Source of the DNA: Cardiobacteriaceae bacterium
Lineage (GTDB): Bacteria; Pseudomonadota; Gammaproteobacteria; Cardiobacteriales; Cardiobacteriaceae
Assembly (NCBI GenBank): GCA_017484165.1
Contig: JAFUTP010000041.1
Coordinates: forward strand, 1-64,000
Length of the DNA stretch: 64,000 bases
Direction: 5' to 3'
Made by a program: the position numbers and the translations under genes
Part shown: piece after piece, positions 26,704-35,384 of the stretch
How positions within the stretch are numbered: the first letter of the stretch is position 1
How the letters are laid out: the number at the start of each line of letters is the position of its first letter
The notes under the pieces: model-generated
Told to the model about the DNA's origin: nothing
The model's input: the letters and a program-made list of their open reading frames with translations, nothing else
Databases searched by the model: none

Positions 26704-29700
26704 TTAGGCATTCTTATTTTTCGCCATATCCATCACCACTTTTTTAATCAACTCATAGTGCAGGGAATATTGGTTACTTATGCGTAAAATTTTACACCCT
26801 TCTGCTTTACAAATTAACTCTTTGCGCTTATCTCGGTATTTGGTTGCTTGGTCTTGATAATGTTCATCACCGTCTAATTCGATAATTAAAACTGGTCTCT
26901 TGTTATCAAAAATTACAAAATCAAATTCTGCATTTTCGTAATATTCTTTATTTTTTTCTTCGAATGTAACAAAAAGCTTATTCATAGCTACATTTCTTTT
27001 AACGCTTAAATTTTCGCTATTACTTAACACCTGACTTACCGTTTTATAAAATTCTCTTTCGGAACTTGAATTATTCGATTTATTTTTATTGCGGTATTCA
27101 GTAAGAACTTTTATTACTTCTGATTTATTATTAGCAAGCGCATAATCAACTAAACTTTTGAGTTTATTGTTTTCTACTTCTGTGTTAGGTATTCCCTCTT
27201 TATCTATAATTTTTGCGGAATATTTATCACTCAATTCGTTAATTGCATCGACATCGCAACAAATCACAAAGTTCCGTTTAGCTCTGGTGGCAGCTACATT
27301 TATAATTTCAGAGTTATTTTTAATCCAGTTAAATGTGCTTGCAGCCGTGCTTTTCGCCACCGAAGGCGACAAAATCACCGTGTCATATTCCGAACCTTGC
27401 ACGCTATGAATTGTTCCTACCGAAACATTTGTTATACCGCGATTTTTTAATCTTTCATCAATCAAAGCCGCTTGATTGCGAAAGGGCGAAATAACCGCAA
27501 CTTGCTCCCCTAGAAACCTATCTTCGCTACACAATTCGGCTACACCTTCCGCTTCTTCATAAAAACAATTGCGCTCTGGACCATATTGATTTGCAACTTG
27601 CACTATTTCTACCGCACCTTCTTGTCCTGCATTGTATTTCAATTGATTGTCATAGTAATGCAAATTGCTAAACGCGATAATTTCTTCGGGACAGCGGTAA
27701 TGATAAGAAAGTAGCACTTGTTTGCTATTTTTATCGGTTTTTGTCATTAAAGACAAGACACTCTCCCGAGTAAAGTCATACAAATCAGGACTATCAAACT
27801 CAAGATTTTTGGCAATTTTGAGCATTTGCCGCCGTTCTAAATTGATAATTGGGCGAAGTTGTTCGGTATCCCCAACTAAAAGTAAGCGTTTTGCCCGAAT
27901 TATCGGAATTAGGGAGCTGGCAATATCGCATTGCCCCGCCTCATCCATTAAGCACAAATCAAAATGGGGATTGGCAGAGCCGATTTTTTCGGCAGAAAAG
28001 TTGGTTGTAATCCAAATCGGAAAAATTTTTTGCAATTTTTGAATATTTTCGTCTTTCTTTAAGTAAGCAACGAGTTTTTTACGGGCTGTGTCAAGTAAAT
28101 TCGTTTCTAAAATTTCCAAAAAATCCACATAATCTTGGCTTGTTAATTTTTCTAACATCAGATAGCTGCGGTATTGGATATATTCCAAAAATTCCTGACT
28201 TTCAATTGCAGGAAAACATAGCTTTAATAATTCACTATCGGAAATATCATTTATTGCATCTTTTTTTGCTTGTAGCTCTGCAATTTTGGACTTGAAATAT
28301 TCATTTAATTGATTATTTTCAGCATTTGTTTCTTGCCAAATTATTAAATTTTGCAATTCTTCGCTAATTTGCAATTTTTCTTCATATTTATCGATAATTT
28401 CGGATATTTCATAGCATTTTTTCATCACGAAATATTGCCGCTTCTTTATTTCTTTACTGCTTAATTTCGGCTTGTCTTTAATTTCTTGATAAATATTTTT
28501 CAAATAAATTATGCTTTTTTCTAATTCAGATTGGTTTCCGACCCGAAAAATCGGTAAAAACAGGTCTCTTTTGGCAGTTTTCAGGCTTGTAAATTTTTCC
28601 ATTATTGCTTCTAGTGCTTTATTATTATTAGAGCAAATCAAGCAAGTTTTCTCGTTAAAAAATTGCGAGAAGATTATATTAAGAATAGTTTGAGTTTTGC
28701 CCGTTCCAGGCGGTCCCGCGCAATAAGTTACATCTTCCCGCAGGGCATTGAACACGCATCTCAACTGGTCGATGTTGATTTTGTTGTCATAAGTAATGAG
28801 AGTTGTATTTCTTTTTGCACCGCCGCGGCGAGTTTTTATTCCTAAATATGCTTTAAGCGGCATAGTTAAAGCATTATTTTCAATCATATTTTGAATACTT
28901 GCCCGCACCTCATTAAATTTCAAAAAAAATGAAAATTCAATTTCCATAAATTCAGGACGGGTATTTATTTTCCTATATCTTCCGATTATTTGTTCTAAAC
29001 GGTAAATATAAGCTTCTTTTTTATCTTGAAAATTTTTAACAAAATTATCAGCTCCTGCTTTATCAATAGTTTCAATTAAAAAATTGCGGTTGAATAAAAA
29101 TTCTGGATTTATACTTAATTCTTGTTTTTCAATATTAAAAAATACTTCTTGATAGACGATAACGGTATTTTTATTCCCGCTAGTGATTGATAAAACATTA
29201 AAAATCAAGTGGATAATTTTCTGTTGATGAAGATTTTTAGTTTCTTTGTCCTTATCTAATAAATAACGGCAAAGATTTTTACTCTGTTCTAGATTTAATT
29301 TTACACTCTTATTAGCAGAAAAAGTATCCATATCAATTCCTGCAAGCATTATTCCGCTTTTTTGCTCTTCGCTTTTATTTAATTGCAAACATTGTTCTAA
29401 ATAAAGAAAAACATTATTTTTAGATAAAAGTATTCCGAGAAAATCATCTTGTTTATCCAGCTCTTCTAATTTTTTAATTAGCCTCTCTGGCACTTGATAA
29501 GATAATTCATAAATATAACGGCAGTGAAAAATAGCATTAAAAAATATCTTGCGGTTATATAAAATTCCATCTCCATCACGAGTATTAAACATATCACCTT
29601 GCAAGATTTTCCGTGAAAAATCAATATCTTTTACCGCAAAAAAGAAATAATGCTCTTCCTTTTTTTGGTTCAAATAACCCAAATAAAGCCATTTCCCCTG

Positions 29701-29757
29701 AATTATTGCTTGGGAAATAATGAATGCAATTTCTTTTTCGGGCATCTTTGAACGCAT
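26704..29757 (-). CDS. superfamily 1 helicase fused to a C-terminal PD-(D/E)XK (DUF559/DUF2726/Vsr-like) nuclease
   Basis: 1017 residues. The N-terminal ~100 residues (KWLYLGYLNQKKEEHYFFFAVKDI) form a beta-rich domain I cannot name. SF1 (UPF1/AAA_11-12 type) helicase motifs follow: Walker A GPPGTGKTQTI, DEAG box CLMDEAGQCDIASS, motif III VGDTEQLRPI, motif IV SYHYRCPEEIIAFSN, motif V TIHSVQGSEYDTVILS and motif VI NVAATRAKRNF. The C-terminus carries AEFDFVIFDNKRPVLIIELDGDEHYQDQ...KILRIS, a Vsr/DUF559-type nuclease core. Helicase-nuclease fusions of this kind include the defence protein Hhe. It is the last gene of a four-gene operon with toxin, possible immunity and Fic genes. Confidence 0.85.
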   Translation of the reverse strand: MRSKMPEKEIAFIISQAIIQGKWLYLGYLNQKKEEHYFFFAVKDIDFSRKILQGDMFNTRDGDGILYNRKIFFNAIFHCRYIYELSYQVPERLIKKLEELDKQDDFLGILLSKNNVFLYLEQCLQLNKSEEQKSGIMLAGIDMDTFSANKSVKLNLEQSKNLCRYLLDKDKETKNLHQQKIIHLIFNVLSITSGNKNTVIVYQEVFFNIEKQELSINPEFLFNRNFLIETIDKAGADNFVKNFQDKKEAYIYRLEQIIGRYRKINTRPEFMEIEFSFFLKFNEVRASIQNMIENNALTMPLKAYLGIKTRRGGAKRNTTLITYDNKINIDQLRCVFNALREDVTYCAGPPGTGKTQTILNIIFSQFFNEKTCLICSNNNKALEAIMEKFTSLKTAKRDLFLPIFRVGNQSELEKSIIYLKNIYQEIKDKPKLSSKEIKKRQYFVMKKCYEISEIIDKYEEKLQISEELQNLIIWQETNAENNQLNEYFKSKIAELQAKKDAINDISDSELLKLCFPAIESQEFLEYIQYRSYLMLEKLTSQDYVDFLEILETNLLDTARKKLVAYLKKDENIQKLQKIFPIWITTNFSAEKIGSANPHFDLCLMDEAGQCDIASSLIPIIRAKRLLLVGDTEQLRPIINLERRQMLKIAKNLEFDSPDLYDFTRESVLSLMTKTDKNSKQVLLSYHYRCPEEIIAFSNLHYYDNQLKYNAGQEGAVEIVQVANQYGPERNCFYEEAEGVAELCSEDRFLGEQVAVISPFRNQAALIDERLKNRGITNVSVGTIHSVQGSEYDTVILSPSVAKSTAASTFNWIKNNSEIINVAATRAKRNFVICCDVDAINELSDKYSAKIIDKEGIPNTEVENNKLKSLVDYALANNKSEVIKVLTEYRNKNKSNNSSSEREFYKTVSQVLSNSENLSVKRNVAMNKLFVTFEEKNKEYYENAEFDFVIFDNKRPVLIIELDGDEHYQDQATKYRDKRKELICKAEGCKILRISNQYSLHYELIKKVVMDMAKNKNA

Positions 29758-29771
29758 TTATTTTTCACTCT

Positions 29772-30407
29772 TCAATCTTTTTTTAACAACTCTTCCAGCT
29801 TAAATTCGCGATAATTTTCATATAAATAACTTTGGTCAATACCGCGAGAATAGATATAAAAGTCATCGATTTTATCGGTCATTGCTGACTTTAATAAATA
29901 TTTTATCTCAATATCTCGCACGGGACTTCTTTCCATTGCCAAAAGATAGTCTTCCTTATTTATTTTTTGCCACTCTACGACTTGTTTTATTTCGCTCTTA
30001 AATATTAAATCTAGCCATATTCGCATACTTCTACCATTACCTTCTCGGAATGGATGTAAGATATTCATTTCCACATATTTTTCTACTATTTGCTCAAATG
30101 TTTGCTGCGGCATTTTTTCTACTTCGAGGATAGAACTTGCAAGATACATTGCCGAGGCAAAACGAAAATTTCCTTTGGCAATATTAACTTCTCTGATTTT
30201 TCCTGCAAAATCATAGATATCCGCAAATAAAAAATGATGAATAGCAGCAAGCATTGCAAAACTACCAGCCGCATATTTATCCAAAATCGGATTATTGAAT
30301 AACTCTGCTGCTTTTTGTTTGCTTATTTTTTCTTCTTGAATGGCTAGCTCAATGGGATTTTTAAGCCCTAATTTATTCCCTAAAAGTTCTATTTCACAAA
30401 ATGGCAT
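29772..30407 (-). CDS. class III Fic adenylyltransferase (NmFic-like)
   Basis: 211 residues. The Fic active site HPFREGNGRSMRIWLD is complete (catalytic His, anion-binding GNGR). The surrounding sequence (VVEWQKI, LLAMERSPVRD) is strikingly like Neisseria meningitidis Fic. The autoinhibitory motif (S/T)xxxE(G/N) is at the C-terminus as SYLYEN, which defines class III: activity is held off by an internal helix and tetramerisation rather than a separate antitoxin. NmFic AMPylates DNA gyrase (GyrB); the same target is a reasonable inference. It begins 2 nt after the upstream gene's stop, so expression is coupled. Confidence 0.9.
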   Translation of the reverse strand: MPFCEIELLGNKLGLKNPIELAIQEEKISKQKAAELFNNPILDKYAAGSFAMLAAIHHFLFADIYDFAGKIREVNIAKGNFRFASAMYLASSILEVEKMPQQTFEQIVEKYVEMNILHPFREGNGRSMRIWLDLIFKSEIKQVVEWQKINKEDYLLAMERSPVRDIEIKYLLKSAMTDKIDDFYIYSRGIDQSYLYENYREFKLEELLKKD

Positions 30408-30915: not shown

Positions 30916-31713
30916 TTATTTACCAGTTACAAAACCCTTCTCATCAAGGGTAGCTATACGGTTTCCATTCCCTTTATTGTCTTTTAATTTCCACTTACTA
31001 CCTGCACCGTGTCCAGTTTCATCTTTTTCAATACGCCATCCTGTTTTTGGTTCTTTGAACCCTTTAACATTTTTTATTTTGTCTGTGAATTTTGATAAAT
31101 CTACTTCACCATTTTTGCCAAATAATCGTTTAGGAATTTTTCCTTTTGCTTCTTCTATTTCTTTCTGTTTTGAGTATTGGTTATATTCTTCAGCCGTTGT
31201 TGCAATATTTTTTGACTTATATTTATTTCTAAAATCTTGCTCTGCTTGTGCAGGATTATTTTGCACTGTTGTAATAAATTTATATACCTCTTCTTCATTT
31301 ATACCTAACACATATTTCATTATGGTATAAATTTCACCGACATCTTGTCTCACAATTGCATTTAGCAAACTAATATAAATACTATCTAATATTTCAGTTG
31401 TTCTAACCCTATTTATTAACCTATTGCCGAATATAGCGGTAGCACTTCTAACTTCTATTTCTTGCTTTGTATTACCACACAATTGTTTTACAACTTCTTC
31501 TTGTTCAGACAATAAATCATTTCTTTCTTGATAAGACAAGCTACGCTTATCACCATTTTCTTGCACATAGACAGTTCGAGAAAAATCAGACATTTTTGCC
31601 ACATTATTTCTCGCAATCTGACATCTTTCTTCACGGCTAATAACACCTTCTCTGTTATCAGCTAATGAAATGCTAGAAAAAGCTATCAACAAAATAAGGA
31701 ATTGTTTTTTCAT
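30916..31713 (-). CDS. secreted protein with polymorphic-toxin-like C-terminal domain
   Basis: 265 residues; GGAG lies just upstream of the start. Signal peptide MKKQFLILLIAFSSISLA with cleavage near ADN. The middle is helical and charged. The last ~45 residues (GWRIEKDETGHGAGSKWKLKD, then RIATLDEKGFVTGK) look like the short His/Lys-containing C-terminal toxin domains (polymorphic toxin type 35/37-like) of CDI and related systems; this match is from memory and uncertain. There is no TpsB/VgrG/Rhs delivery domain. It begins the accessory operon 22 nt downstream of ibaG, so it may be read through from the mla operon. Confidence 0.6.
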   Translation of the reverse strand: MKKQFLILLIAFSSISLADNREGVISREERCQIARNNVAKMSDFSRTVYVQENGDKRSLSYQERNDLLSEQEEVVKQLCGNTKQEIEVRSATAIFGNRLINRVRTTEILDSIYISLLNAIVRQDVGEIYTIMKYVLGINEEEVYKFITTVQNNPAQAEQDFRNKYKSKNIATTAEEYNQYSKQKEIEEAKGKIPKRLFGKNGEVDLSKFTDKIKNVKGFKEPKTGWRIEKDETGHGAGSKWKLKDNKGNGNRIATLDEKGFVTGK

Positions 31714-31735: not shown

Positions 31736-31960
31736 TCACACTCTTGTCTTTATTTTCACCGCATGAATTTCGTTAGTTGCGATTAAATCTTCCAATGCTT
31801 TTAGGACCATTCGGTGTTGTTCTATACGGCTGATGTCGCGGAATTTCTCGCTTTGGACTTCGATTGCGGCATAAGTTCCGTCAAGACCGTCTTCCATACT
31901 AATTTTTATTTCACAACTTCCTAGTTTTTCAAGCACCCTCTTTCTTATTTTTTCTTGCAC
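31736..31960 (-). CDS. ibaG: BolA-family protein IbaG
   Basis: 74 residues. BolA fold (GTYAAIEVQSEKFRDISRIEQHRMVLKALEDLI...HAVKIKT) with the class-typical E-H-x-M helix. BolA-type proteins work with monothiol glutaredoxins in Fe-S handling; ibaG sits at the end of the mla operon in E. coli too (formerly yrbA). In E. coli murA follows; here the toxin-like gene follows instead. Confidence 0.9.
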   Translation of the reverse strand: MQEKIRKRVLEKLGSCEIKISMEDGLDGTYAAIEVQSEKFRDISRIEQHRMVLKALEDLIATNEIHAVKIKTRV

Positions 31961-31962
31961 TC

Positions 31963-32286
31963 TTATTCCTCTTTTTCCGAATTTTTAATTATTTCTGTCA
32001 AGCCGTATAAATCCAAAAGTTTTGCCAAATCTCTGCTGATATTTTCCCAGCTAGTTTTTATTCCGAATTTGCCCAGCTCGCGAACGAGCCAAATAAAACT
32101 TGCGATTGCCGCACTGTCGCAATTTTCCAAACTGCTGCAATCGATTTTTACCGTATTTGGCAATTGGCGGACTTCTTTGATATCGAATTGCGCAAACTTT
32201 TTCCCAGATAAGGATTTGCTGGATACAACAGACGGCAGAACCAGTCTGCCGTCCTTATCAATTATTCCGAGTGCTGTGTTAATCAT
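31963..32286 (-). CDS. mlaB: STAS-domain subunit of the Mla phospholipid ABC transporter
   Basis: 107 residues. STAS fold (TVKIDCSSLENCDSAAIASFIWLVRELGKFGIKTSWEN) that binds MlaF and stabilises and activates the MlaFEDB complex at the cytoplasmic face. The start overlaps the mlaC stop as ATGA, and ibaG starts 2 nt after its stop. Confidence 0.9.
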   Translation of the reverse strand: MINTALGIIDKDGRLVLPSVVSSKSLSGKKFAQFDIKEVRQLPNTVKIDCSSLENCDSAAIASFIWLVRELGKFGIKTSWENISRDLAKLLDLYGLTEIIKNSEKEE

Positions 32287-32876
32287 TGCATCGTTTTCAT
32301 TTTTGCAATTAGGGCATCAACACCAGAGGCTTGAATTTCACCGTCGAATGTGGTGCGGTAACCGCTAATGAGCGAAACATTCGAGAAAGTCGCGTCATAG
32401 AGTTTCCAAACACCGCCGTCATACCAAAGCGCAAATTCAATTTGATTGGTTTGCCCGTTATTAACAACTTGCGCCCGCACCTTTGCCCGTTGATATTGAT
32501 CGACGGTTGGCGTGCCAATAACGCTAATTTGCGCGTTGGTGTATTCCGTCCAAGATTTGGAATAAACACGGATAAGCAATTCACGGAAAGCATCGCGGAA
32601 AGCTTCGAATTTGCCAGCCGCCTTGACCGACTGCAAATGCCGACCGAGAGCTATTTCAGCCATTTTGTCGAATGCCATATTTGGCGCGACACGGGAATTG
32701 ACAAATTGATTAAACGCTGCTGGATTGCCTGCATAAGTTGCTTGATTGGCGCGCAATTCGGCAATTAGCGTATTGGTTTGTGCTTCAACCGTTGCTTTGG
32801 CATCTTCGCCCGTTGCCGCTGCAACCGCAAGACCGCAAGCGCAAGCAAGTGCGCAACTAAGTAAGAGTTTTTTCAT
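32283..32876 (-). CDS. mlaC: periplasmic phospholipid-binding protein of the Mla system
   Basis: 197 residues. A signal peptide (MKKLLLSCALACACGLAVAAA) precedes the Tol-Tol-Ttg2 fold (NSRVAPNMAFDKMAEIALGRHL, FRDAFRELLIRVYSKSW, WKLYDATFSNVSLISGYRTTF). It ferries phospholipid between the outer-membrane MlaA-porin complex and MlaFEDB. Length and order match the family. Confidence 0.95.
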   Translation of the reverse strand: MKKLLLSCALACACGLAVAAATGEDAKATVEAQTNTLIAELRANQATYAGNPAAFNQFVNSRVAPNMAFDKMAEIALGRHLQSVKAAGKFEAFRDAFRELLIRVYSKSWTEYTNAQISVIGTPTVDQYQRAKVRAQVVNNGQTNQIEFALWYDGGVWKLYDATFSNVSLISGYRTTFDGEIQASGVDALIAKMKTMQ

Positions 32877-32933: not shown

Positions 32934-33746
32934 CTATTGTTTCATTGTCATATTGCTGACAAATTGCTGGATAAGTTTTTCCAAAACTACCGCTGAATTT
33001 GCATATTGAAATTCGCCACCGTCGGTTAAATATGCCGTTTCACCGCCTGGTGTAATCCCGATATATTTTCCACCGATAAGACTTGTTGATAAAACATCGG
33101 CACTGCTATCAAGCGGAATTTTTCCATATTGCGCGTCGATTTCCATCGTAACTACCGCCTGAAATGTATTTTGGTCGAGTTGCACACTGCTTACTCTGCC
33201 AATTTGCACGCCGCTTTGTTTTACGGGAGTATCAACCGCAATACCACTTGCATCGGTAAATTTTGCCGTTAATTTGTAGAACTTTTCGGGATACATAATT
33301 CCGCCGCCTGCAAACTGCTGTAAGACTTTTTCCAAAACCAGCGAGCCGCCCGTATTGGCAATTTTTCCGCCGTCTGCGAGATTTTTACCGCTAATGCCGC
33401 GATTTATCCCAACATATCTTTCACCGAGCAAGCCCGAAGTAAGAATTTGTGCTCCGCTGTCAGACGGTATTAAAAAATCGCTGGCTATGATGAGTTCGAC
33501 TGAAGTTTTACCGTCTTTTAATAATTCAACTTGTCCGACTCGACCGATTTGCACGCCTGCCATCGAAACTTTTGCATCTTTACCAAGTCCGCCAATATCA
33601 CCAAAAATCGCCGTTACGCGATAAACATTTTGCGGATTAAACGCTCCTAAATTGCTCGCCTTAAAGCCCAAGAAAAACAAAGCTGCCAAAGCAAGAATGA
33701 CAAAAAATCCTACCGCTGCTGTGTATGAAGAATTGTGATTTTTCAT
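32934..33746 (-). CDS. mlaD: MlaD with two tandem MCE domains
   Basis: 270 residues, against about 183 in E. coli. One N-terminal TM helix (AAVGFFVILALAALFFLGF) is followed by two MCE domains. The first, from YRVTAIFGDIGGLGKDAKV, contains GVQIGRVGQVEL and LLGERYVGINRG. The second, from YKLTAKFTDASGIAVDTPV, contains GVQIGRVSSVQL and LIGGKYIGITPGG. Both end with a VLEKxxQQF helix. Standard MlaD hexamers form a single MCE ring; two domains predict two stacked rings. It lies in the complete mlaFEDCB operon, so its function as substrate channel of the transporter is not in doubt. Confidence 0.94.
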   Translation of the reverse strand: MKNHNSSYTAAVGFFVILALAALFFLGFKASNLGAFNPQNVYRVTAIFGDIGGLGKDAKVSMAGVQIGRVGQVELLKDGKTSVELIIASDFLIPSDSGAQILTSGLLGERYVGINRGISGKNLADGGKIANTGGSLVLEKVLQQFAGGGIMYPEKFYKLTAKFTDASGIAVDTPVKQSGVQIGRVSSVQLDQNTFQAVVTMEIDAQYGKIPLDSSADVLSTSLIGGKYIGITPGGETAYLTDGGEFQYANSAVVLEKLIQQFVSNMTMKQ

Positions 33747-33780: not shown

Positions 33781-34548
33781 CTACATACCGAACATCAAGG
33801 CGGTAAGCAAAAAGTCCGCTGCCAAAATCGCCAAAGATGAAGAAACTACCGTTTTTGTCGTTGCAAGTCCCAAGCCTTGCGCGCCTTGCGGAGCATAAAA
33901 ACCGTAATAAACCGCAATCGCTGCGCACAATGCTCCGAATACCAAGGATTTCACGATTACACCTAAAAAGATATTGTGAAAAAATTCCACTCCGCGCTGC
34001 AATTGTGCCCAGAACATCGCACCGTCTAAACCTAAACGAGTGCCGACGAAATATCCGCCCATCATTGCCACCGCGACGAATATCAAAGCCAAAGCAGGCA
34101 GCGCAAAAAATGCTCCGTAAAACCGCGAAACTCCGACCCGCGCTATTGGTTCAATCCCCATCATTTCAATTGCGGCAAGTTGTTCGGTTGCCTGCATCAA
34201 ACCGATTTCCGCGGTAATTGCCGAACCAGCCCGACCCGCAAATAAAAGCGCACTCACCACCGCTCCGAGTTCGCGCATCAAAGCAAGTGCGACCAAAGTT
34301 GCCGTCGCGCTCTCCGCGCCAAAAGTTTGCATATTGACAAAAGCTTGCAAAGCTAAAACCATTCCGACAAAAAGCCCAGAGAGCAAAATTATCGGTAGCG
34401 ATAAAACCGCCGAGTTATAAAAAGCACGGATAAATTCCATCGGGCGACGGAAAATTTCCCAAGAAGAGGCAAGTAGTTCAATAAAAAATAAAGAAAAACG
34501 CCCCAAATGCGACACAGCACGAAATACCGTGCGAGAAACAATAAACAT
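33781..34548 (-). CDS. mlaE: Mla phospholipid ABC transporter permease
   Basis: 255 residues, polytopic. Hallmarks of the MlaE/Ttg2B permease: SGLFVGMVLALQAFVNMQTFGAE, LMRELGAVVSALLFAGRAGSAITAEIG (coupling helix region) and GIEPIARVGVSRFYG. Translocates or extracts phospholipids in the inner membrane with MlaF energy. Its ATG shares one base with the mlaF stop (TAATG). Confidence 0.95.
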   Translation of the reverse strand: MFIVSRTVFRAVSHLGRFSLFFIELLASSWEIFRRPMEFIRAFYNSAVLSLPIILLSGLFVGMVLALQAFVNMQTFGAESATATLVALALMRELGAVVSALLFAGRAGSAITAEIGLMQATEQLAAIEMMGIEPIARVGVSRFYGAFFALPALALIFVAVAMMGGYFVGTRLGLDGAMFWAQLQRGVEFFHNIFLGVIVKSLVFGALCAAIAVYYGFYAPQGAQGLGLATTKTVVSSSLAILAADFLLTALMFGM

Positions 34549-35354
34549 TAAACCGCTCCTCGCATATCCGCCAAATAGTTGTAATTCGGATAATGAAACG
34601 GCACGGGACCATCAGACAAAGCGTGCATAAATTGTTTAATCATTGGCTCTTCGCTCTGATAAAGCTTTTCTGGCGCATCGAGTGCGAGCAATTTTCCGTC
34701 CGCGATGAGCAAAATCCGATCCGCAATCGCTGCCACTTCCGCAACATCATGGCTGACAATCAAACTCGTCATATCCAAACCGCGGCTGAAATCGCGCACC
34801 AATTTCGCCAGCATTCCCAAAGTTATCGGATCTTGCCCCGTAAAAGGTTCGTCATAAATCATAATTTTGGGGTCGAGTGCCATTGCCCGCGCTAGAGCTG
34901 CCCGTCGCATCATTCCGCCCGATAGTTCCTGCGGCATTAAATATCGCGCACCAGCCAGTCCAACGGTTTGCAATTTCATCGCTACCAAAATTTCAATCAG
35001 TTCTTTCGGTAACTTGGCAACTTCTCGCAAGGGAAAAGCAACATTGTCAAAAACCGTCATATCGGTAAATAAAGCATTCGATTGAAAAAGCATTCCGATA
35101 TTGCGCCGCAGTTCCATTAACTCGGCGCGAGAAAGAGTTGATAAATCACGCCCAAAAACAAAAACTCGCCCCGAACTCGGAGCAAGTTGTCCTGTAATTA
35201 AACGCATTAAAGTAGTCTTGCCCGTTCCAGACGGTCCCATCACTCCGACTACTTCACCGCGATTTATCGAAAAAGAAAGATTGGAAAAAATAACCCGACC
35301 AGCGCGACGGAAAGAAACCTCTTCAAGGCGAATTATTTCCTGCATATCCTGCAT
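34548..35354 (-). CDS. mlaF: Mla phospholipid ABC transporter ATPase
   Basis: 268 residues from the ATG at 35354; the longer frame begins at a TTG six codons upstream and lacks a better binding site. Walker A VMGPSGTGKTTLM, signature LSGGMMRRAALARA (MlaF-type), Walker B IMIYDEPFTGQDP and H-loop VSHD. Energises the MlaFEDB complex, which maintains outer-membrane lipid asymmetry. First gene of the operon after cvpA on the same strand. Confidence 0.95.
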   Translation of the reverse strand: MQDMQEIIRLEEVSFRRAGRVIFSNLSFSINRGEVVGVMGPSGTGKTTLMRLITGQLAPSSGRVFVFGRDLSTLSRAELMELRRNIGMLFQSNALFTDMTVFDNVAFPLREVAKLPKELIEILVAMKLQTVGLAGARYLMPQELSGGMMRRAALARAMALDPKIMIYDEPFTGQDPITLGMLAKLVRDFSRGLDMTSLIVSHDVAEVAAIADRILLIADGKLLALDAPEKLYQSEEPMIKQFMHALSDGPVPFHYPNYNYLADMRGAV

Positions 35355-35384
35355 AAATTTTCCAATTCTCAAATGAAGAACGGT

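Follow-up and report, generated by a model that had tools for sequence, protein, structure and literature searches.

The 64,000-nucleotide stretch of Cardiobacteriaceae DNA analyzed here (the window) carries an intact mlaFEDCB-ibaG cluster, with all mla genes on the minus strand and MlaA encoded elsewhere in the genome. The ATPase gene mlaF (positions 34548 to 35372, minus strand) matched PF00005 and scored 331 bits against NF008809, below the equivalog cut-off, and the permease gene mlaE (33781 to 34548, minus strand) scored 206.5 bits against PF02405 and exceeded the TIGR00056 cut-off. mlaD (32934 to 33746, minus strand) is followed by mlaC, encoding the periplasmic lipid shuttle (32283 to 32876, minus strand; PF05494, 126.9 bits), by the STAS gene mlaB (31963 to 32286, minus strand; PF13466, 35 bits), and by an ibaG/BolA-like open reading frame (31736 to 31960, minus strand), which comes after mlaB in the window and in relatives. 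MlaF, MlaE, MlaC, and MlaB flank mlaD on the same strand, in agreement with the initial annotation of an otherwise standard operon. A scan for sigma-70 promoters returned a number of sites at or below that from shuffled sequence.

Several further genes were recorded beyond ibaG. Between ibaG and the gene for a 163-aa protein lies an open reading frame (30916 to 31713) for a 265-aa protein that has a signal-like N-terminus and matches no Pfam family. In the sister MAG (L036) the 163-aa gene directly follows ibaG, so that the 265-aa gene represents either an insertion in the window genome or a loss in the sister MAG. The conserved 163-aa protein, also without a Pfam match, adjoins a Fic/DOC family protein with an HPFREGNGR motif (29772 to 30407), and the fic and 163-aa pair is likewise present in the sister MAG. 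Adjoining fic on the other side, positions 26704 to 29757 encode a 1017-aa superfamily 1 helicase (AAA_11/AAA_12) with a C-terminal DUF2726/endonuclease-like domain, possibly a defense gene.

MlaD, the outer membrane lipid asymmetry maintenance protein, takes part in lipid transport in the bacterial envelope. Its open reading frame in the window encodes 270 amino acids, with a single transmembrane (TM) helix ahead of two complete MCE domains. The N-terminal TM helix (33651 to 33731, minus strand; residues about 6 to 32 in the secondary structure of the model) is followed by MCE domain 1 (D1; 33396 to 33623, minus strand; PF02470, 63.6 bits, E 3e-17), a short helix (VLEKVLQQF) and Gly-rich linker of low model confidence (33288 to 33347, minus strand), MCE domain 2 (D2; 33045 to 33278, minus strand; PF02470, 76.5 bits, E 3e-21), and a 15-residue C-terminal helix (SAVVLEKLIQQF...; 32949 to 32993, minus strand) like that of single-MCE MlaDs. 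The PF02470 cut-off is 25.1 bits; the protein scored 130.1 bits in total, and both domains, including the second segment, individually exceeded the cut-off. The MlaD equivalog model TIGR04430 (cut-off 135) gave 261.8 bits in two stretches. Two complete MCE domains behind one predicted TM helix were therefore confirmed, as was the proposed occurrence of both motifs twice: GVQIGRV is exact in D1 and D2, and the second motif takes the form LLGERYVGI in D1, against LIGGKYIGI in D2. LLGE beside the pore is thus kept in D1, whereas LIGG replaces LLG[ED] in D2. With two domains, the protein departs from the single-MCE (type I) definition of MlaD.

D1 and D2 shared 39% identity across 110 residues (BLASTP E 2e-24), which marks them as paralogous repeats rather than a coincidental match. 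A recent tandem repeat at the DNA level was rejected: the halves showed 42% ungapped nucleotide identity, and no tandem repeat was found. A separate D2 product from an internal start at Met151 is unlikely, since this Met is absent from the orthologue of another genus (G005). As the window genome comes from a MAG of 77 contigs with 87% completeness, we considered whether the second domain could be an artefact of assembly, reading frame, or contamination, or a chance match. However, the same 270-aa open reading frame was also found in Cardiobacteriaceae bacterium RGIG9182, a congeneric MAG from water deer reticulum (L007, 97% identity), and a tandem-MCE MlaD of the same length was present in the other genus (L008, 58% identity), with synteny conserved. 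The dN/dS between the two congeneric genomes was 0.079 for D1 and 0.012 for D2, indicating that both are under constraint. These independent genomes and the purifying selection on both halves, together with domain scores far above the Pfam cut-off, leave an artefact or chance match a negligible probability, and it was ruled out.

Distribution and origins of the tandem form

Within the Cardiobacteriales, tandem-MCE MlaD was detected in three of 32 genomes (G000, which is the window genome, G001, and G005), and MlaD was single-MCE in the remaining Cardiobacteriaceae genera examined. The form is therefore not common in the order, and no description of a two-MCE or tandem-MCE MlaD was found in the literature searched. 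Beyond the sister MAG, a scan of named genomes with the window MlaD sequence gave a single remote match. The open frames of G342 (320 aa) and G039 (342 aa) resembled doubles but were rejected, each having one MCE domain.

The class was surveyed using an even sample of 369 Gammaproteobacteria genomes. Matches spanning two units occurred only in G121, G135, and the two Cardiobacteriaceae of this sample, or about 1% of those sampled, and a broader profile gave the same result. The MlaD of G121 (family f94) is 277 aa long with two MCE units. That of G135 (family f108) lies in an mlaFE operon and has at least three tandem MCE units (L064, 2527 to 3552; G135:C28), the gene running off the contig. 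In a sample of 399 genomes from the phylum, one additional tandem-MCE genome was found, G591, of the gammaproteobacterial family f183. Seven of the 11 f183 genomes examined encode the tandem form, and the other four have single-MCE MlaDs of 173 to 179 aa.

Some local peculiarities were also observed in these genomes. The mla operon of G121 includes a gene for a TolC-like outer membrane efflux protein (PF02321; L063, 1769 to 3142), which separates its double-MCE mlaD from mlaC, and a search for MlaA in this incomplete genome found none. A further single-MCE protein, 164 aa long, is encoded separately in G135 (G135:C21). In G006, from another Cardiobacteriaceae genus, the single-MCE mlaD (L029, 1480 to 1945) is split into two frames, through either an error of assembly or disruption of the gene, and in G039 a single-MCE mlaD is followed by two tandem mlaC-like genes (L061, 1514 to 2748).

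In the domain tree, the D1 and D2 of the window fell inside the Cardiobacteriaceae MlaD clade with the single domains of the family (support 99/97; 98/97 without long branches), and the f183 D1 and D2 formed a clade of their own (97/87 without long branches). Without long branches, AU tests rejected both a single clade of all D1 (p 0.026) and a single clade of all D2 (p 0.027). With the full set, one D2 clade was rejected (p 0.009) and one D1 clade was not (p 0.096); these tests rest on 114 columns and are modest in strength. The MlaE and MlaF tree followed the families, requiring at least four changes between the single and tandem states. A single ancient or transferred double MlaD common to all lineages is thus disfavored, the full-set D1 test notwithstanding. 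Since both window domains group with the single domains of their own family, the tandem duplication has recurred, with good support for at least two events and probably four. The Cardiobacteriaceae event was an in-frame tandem duplication of the whole MlaD periplasmic unit, that is, the MCE fold and the following helix, in the ancestor of two genera of the family, and it predates the split between them (g1 and g5). The duplication arose within the family, and comparable ones occurred independently elsewhere in the Gammaproteobacteria. The initial annotation was thus right on the duplication, the operon, and the restriction of the tandem form within the order; the recurrence elsewhere and the consistent D1/D2 divergence described below had been missed.

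Divergence of the two domains

Residues were numbered on the E. coli MlaD and MlaE sequences, and the cited residues agreed with the published papers and with the PDB MlaD alignment. Position 109, which adjoins pore leucines 106 and 107, was acidic in 12 of 12 D1 domains, in none of 12 D2 domains, and in 30 of 34 single domains. The loop between beta6 and beta7 diverged in charge. In the window, the D1 loop (NRGISGKN; 33381 to 33404, minus strand) has a net charge of +2 and has lost its acidic MlaC-docking character, whereas the D2 loop (TPGGETAY; 33030 to 33053, minus strand), the presumed MlaC-docking loop, has a net charge of -1 and resembles that of single-MCE MlaDs. Mean net charges were +1.2 for D1, -0.9 for D2, and -2.0 for single domains, and a positive loop was found in none of the 34 single domains. 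Position 120 was Lys or Arg in most D1 domains; the Lys of the window D1 sits one position later. The canonical LIxxF helix was kept by D2 in three of four lineages, and the D1 variant was shorter. The middle domain of the three-unit G135 protein also had no net acidic loop. G005 was an exception, its D1 loop having a net charge of -1, the same as its D2.

The acidic beta6-beta7 loop of E. coli MlaD docks MlaC (PMC11289387, PMC10245069), and either D120K or E119K abolishes function (PMC11289387). D2 therefore appears, from the aligned sequences, to have kept the MlaC-docking site, while D1 appears to have mostly lost the acidity of the docking loop. This signature was partly found by looking, and only the loop-charge test had a prior structural reason. 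A column scan against random single domains was moderately significant at best: with G005 as the representative it gave three convergent columns (null P of about 0.02 for at least three), and with G000 it gave one (null P of 0.29 for at least one). A change in MlaC docking had been anticipated; the consistent direction in which D1 and D2 diverge suggests how it may have come about.

These differences may also be attributed to relaxed constraint, the extra ring being either a spacer that raises the MlaC dock clear of the peptidoglycan or crowded periplasm, or a product of drift. D1 does evolve faster than D2, as seen from its dN/dS (0.079 against 0.012) and its longer branches, and relaxation alone can yield a loss of acidic residues. 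Nevertheless, D1 is under strong purifying selection, its pore leucines and acidic residue 109 are kept in all lineages, and the D1 loops gained basic residues in every tandem lineage, beyond a mere loss of acidic ones. We consider relaxed constraint an improbable account of the divergence.

Structural model and proposed arrangement of the rings

The AlphaFold monomer showed MCE secondary structure in both domains at about pLDDT 80, and Foldseek aligned the model to MlaD, LetB, and PqiB structures. The relative placement of D1 and D2 is not fixed by this model, since its pTM was 0.41 and residues 135 to 153 in the linker had pLDDT below 50. The window protein is likely to be a two-ring MlaD, with the rings stacked and MlaC docking on the distal one. 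Stacking fits the retention of the docking loop in the C-terminal domain and of the ancestral acidic pore residue in the TM-proximal domain. The duplicated unit would end at the top center and restart after a short linker, as in LetB.

In E. coli MlaFEDB, all six MlaD TM helices contact MlaE (PMC7790496). By analogy, six chains would place six TM helices on MlaE, the six D1 domains would form ring 1 directly on it, and the six D2 domains would form ring 2 stacked atop ring 1, with a hydrophobic pore lined by the LL/LI residues presumably continuous through both. MlaC would dock on the distal ring 2, which still carries the acidic beta6-beta7 loop along with the canonical LIxxF helix, while ring 1, having lost MlaC docking, might serve as a coupling or holding chamber linking MlaE to ring 2. 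One MCE ring is about 30 Å high, as known from LetB. The MlaC dock would therefore be shifted further into the periplasm by the height of a ring, which falls far short of spanning it. One extra ring does not cross the periplasm, and the genome keeps both MlaC and MlaA, so that exchanging lipid with the outer membrane would still need these two proteins. The double MlaD is best described as a taller docking platform for the shuttle and not as a bridge. Two stacked rings, as first suggested, thus remain the likeliest reading, whereas a channel in the style of PqiB or YebT was overstated: the units are MlaD-type and were duplicated from MlaD within the family, neither MlaC nor MlaA has been lost, and a PqiB-like protein is encoded separately.

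Alternatively, three chains might place D1 and D2 side by side in one pseudo-hexameric ring, much as ring proteins with tandem-fused subunits do, halving the chain number and adding no ring. Such a ring could be built from two units per chain, or from three if G135 has no more than its minimum, as both numbers divide six. In E. coli, only one or two MlaC are bound per MlaD hexamer (PMC11289387), so that three docking loops would be enough. A further point concerns MlaE, whose IF1 glycines pack on the MlaD TM helices in E. coli (PMC7790496). An IF1 glycine in the N-terminal part of MlaE (encoded at window positions 34400 to 34548) was replaced at position 10 in g1, where the window has Ser, at position 21 in g5, and at position 10 in f183, and this degenerate motif might give fewer or altered TM contacts. 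However, the loss does not track duplication, because the single-MCE G832, from the order of f183, also lacks Gly at position 10, and both glycines are kept in f94 and f108. On the MlaD side, Gly13 of the TM helix, which corresponds to E. coli Gly11 packing on MlaE IF1 (PMC7790496), was invariant in the 11 tandem-MCE proteins aligned. Three chains would also mismatch the two-fold MlaE dimer and the six TM helices of E. coli MlaFEDB (PMC7790496). In addition, D1 ends in the central helix and D2 begins about 10 residues on, which would suit LetB- or PqiB-like stacking better than a lateral arrangement, and the docking loop is kept by the C-terminal domain, as stacking predicts. A side-by-side ring is therefore unlikely.

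Comparison with known MCE systems

MCE systems range from one ring in MlaD, which needs the MlaC shuttle, to seven in LetB, which spans the periplasm. We give an even chance to a joint reading in which amplification of the MCE unit is a recurring route from a one-ring, shuttle-fed Mla system to a multi-ring one, reaching two rings in Cardiobacteriaceae, f183, and f94 and at least three in f108, with a convergent division of labor in which coupling to MlaE falls to the ring nearest the membrane while MlaC docking stays with the terminal ring. If this is true, living lineages show how multi-ring proteins such as PqiB and LetB could arise from MlaD-like ancestors. Tandem MlaDs that keep MlaC are natural intermediates, having arisen more than once. 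They also allow the published interface between MlaC and MlaD to be tested within a single protein, where MlaC is expected to dock on one domain only, and the natural D1 loops resemble the charge reversals (D120K) by which E. coli MlaD loses its function.

A 2017 survey by Isom et al. noted that Proteobacteria also carry multi-MCE proteins belonging to neither type III nor type IV, at much lower frequency; in the text of that survey, they were not analyzed as duplicated MlaD or for the roles of their domains (PMC5561183). PqiB (type III, three MCE domains) resembles the window protein in its tandem MCE domains behind one TM helix. PqiB differs by working without an ABC partner, by the divergence of its domains, and by a long coiled-coil needle, which is absent from the window MlaD. 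The window MlaD scored 27.6 bits against a cut-off of 525 in the PqiB model, and its operon contains no PqiA, which sets it apart from PqiB. A PqiB-like protein of 561 aa with three MCE domains is encoded elsewhere in the window genome (G000:C13:5569-6618), and one was found in every high-completeness Cardiobacteriaceae member checked. Replacement of PqiB by the double MlaD was rejected, the PqiB-like protein being present in the family with or without a double MlaD.

The stacked MCE rings of LetB/YebT (type IV, seven MCE domains) provide the structural precedent. Foldseek aligned both window domains with LetB over about 280 columns, including over LetB MCE2-MCE3 (6VCI). In contrast to LetB/YebT, the window protein has two units and not about seven, no LetA partner but an MlaFECB operon, and about 15% identity, compared with about 38% to MlaD.

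Enlarged MlaDs are also known. In Veillonella, as in most non-proteobacterial diderms, a long form of MlaD extends a single MCE domain, and the Veillonella system has no MlaC (PMC10665443); Brucella MpcD is an enlarged MlaD proposed to bridge to the outer membrane (PMC12436622). Like the window protein, these are enlarged with MlaFE partners. They enlarge one MCE domain by helices or a beta-barrel, however, whereas the window protein duplicates the MCE unit and keeps MlaC, and nothing extends beyond residue 270, which distinguishes it from long (transenvelope) MlaDs.

The best PDB sequence matches were MlaDs. With MlaD of the canonical MlaFEDB complexes of E. coli, P. aeruginosa, and A. baumannii (6XBD, 7CH8, 6Z5U, and 5UW2), the window protein shares the TM helix, the MCE fold, the pore leucines, the C-terminal helix, and an operon with mlaF, mlaE, mlaC, and mlaB. 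It differs from them in having two MCE units, with the pore-acidic and MlaC-docking features split between the two.
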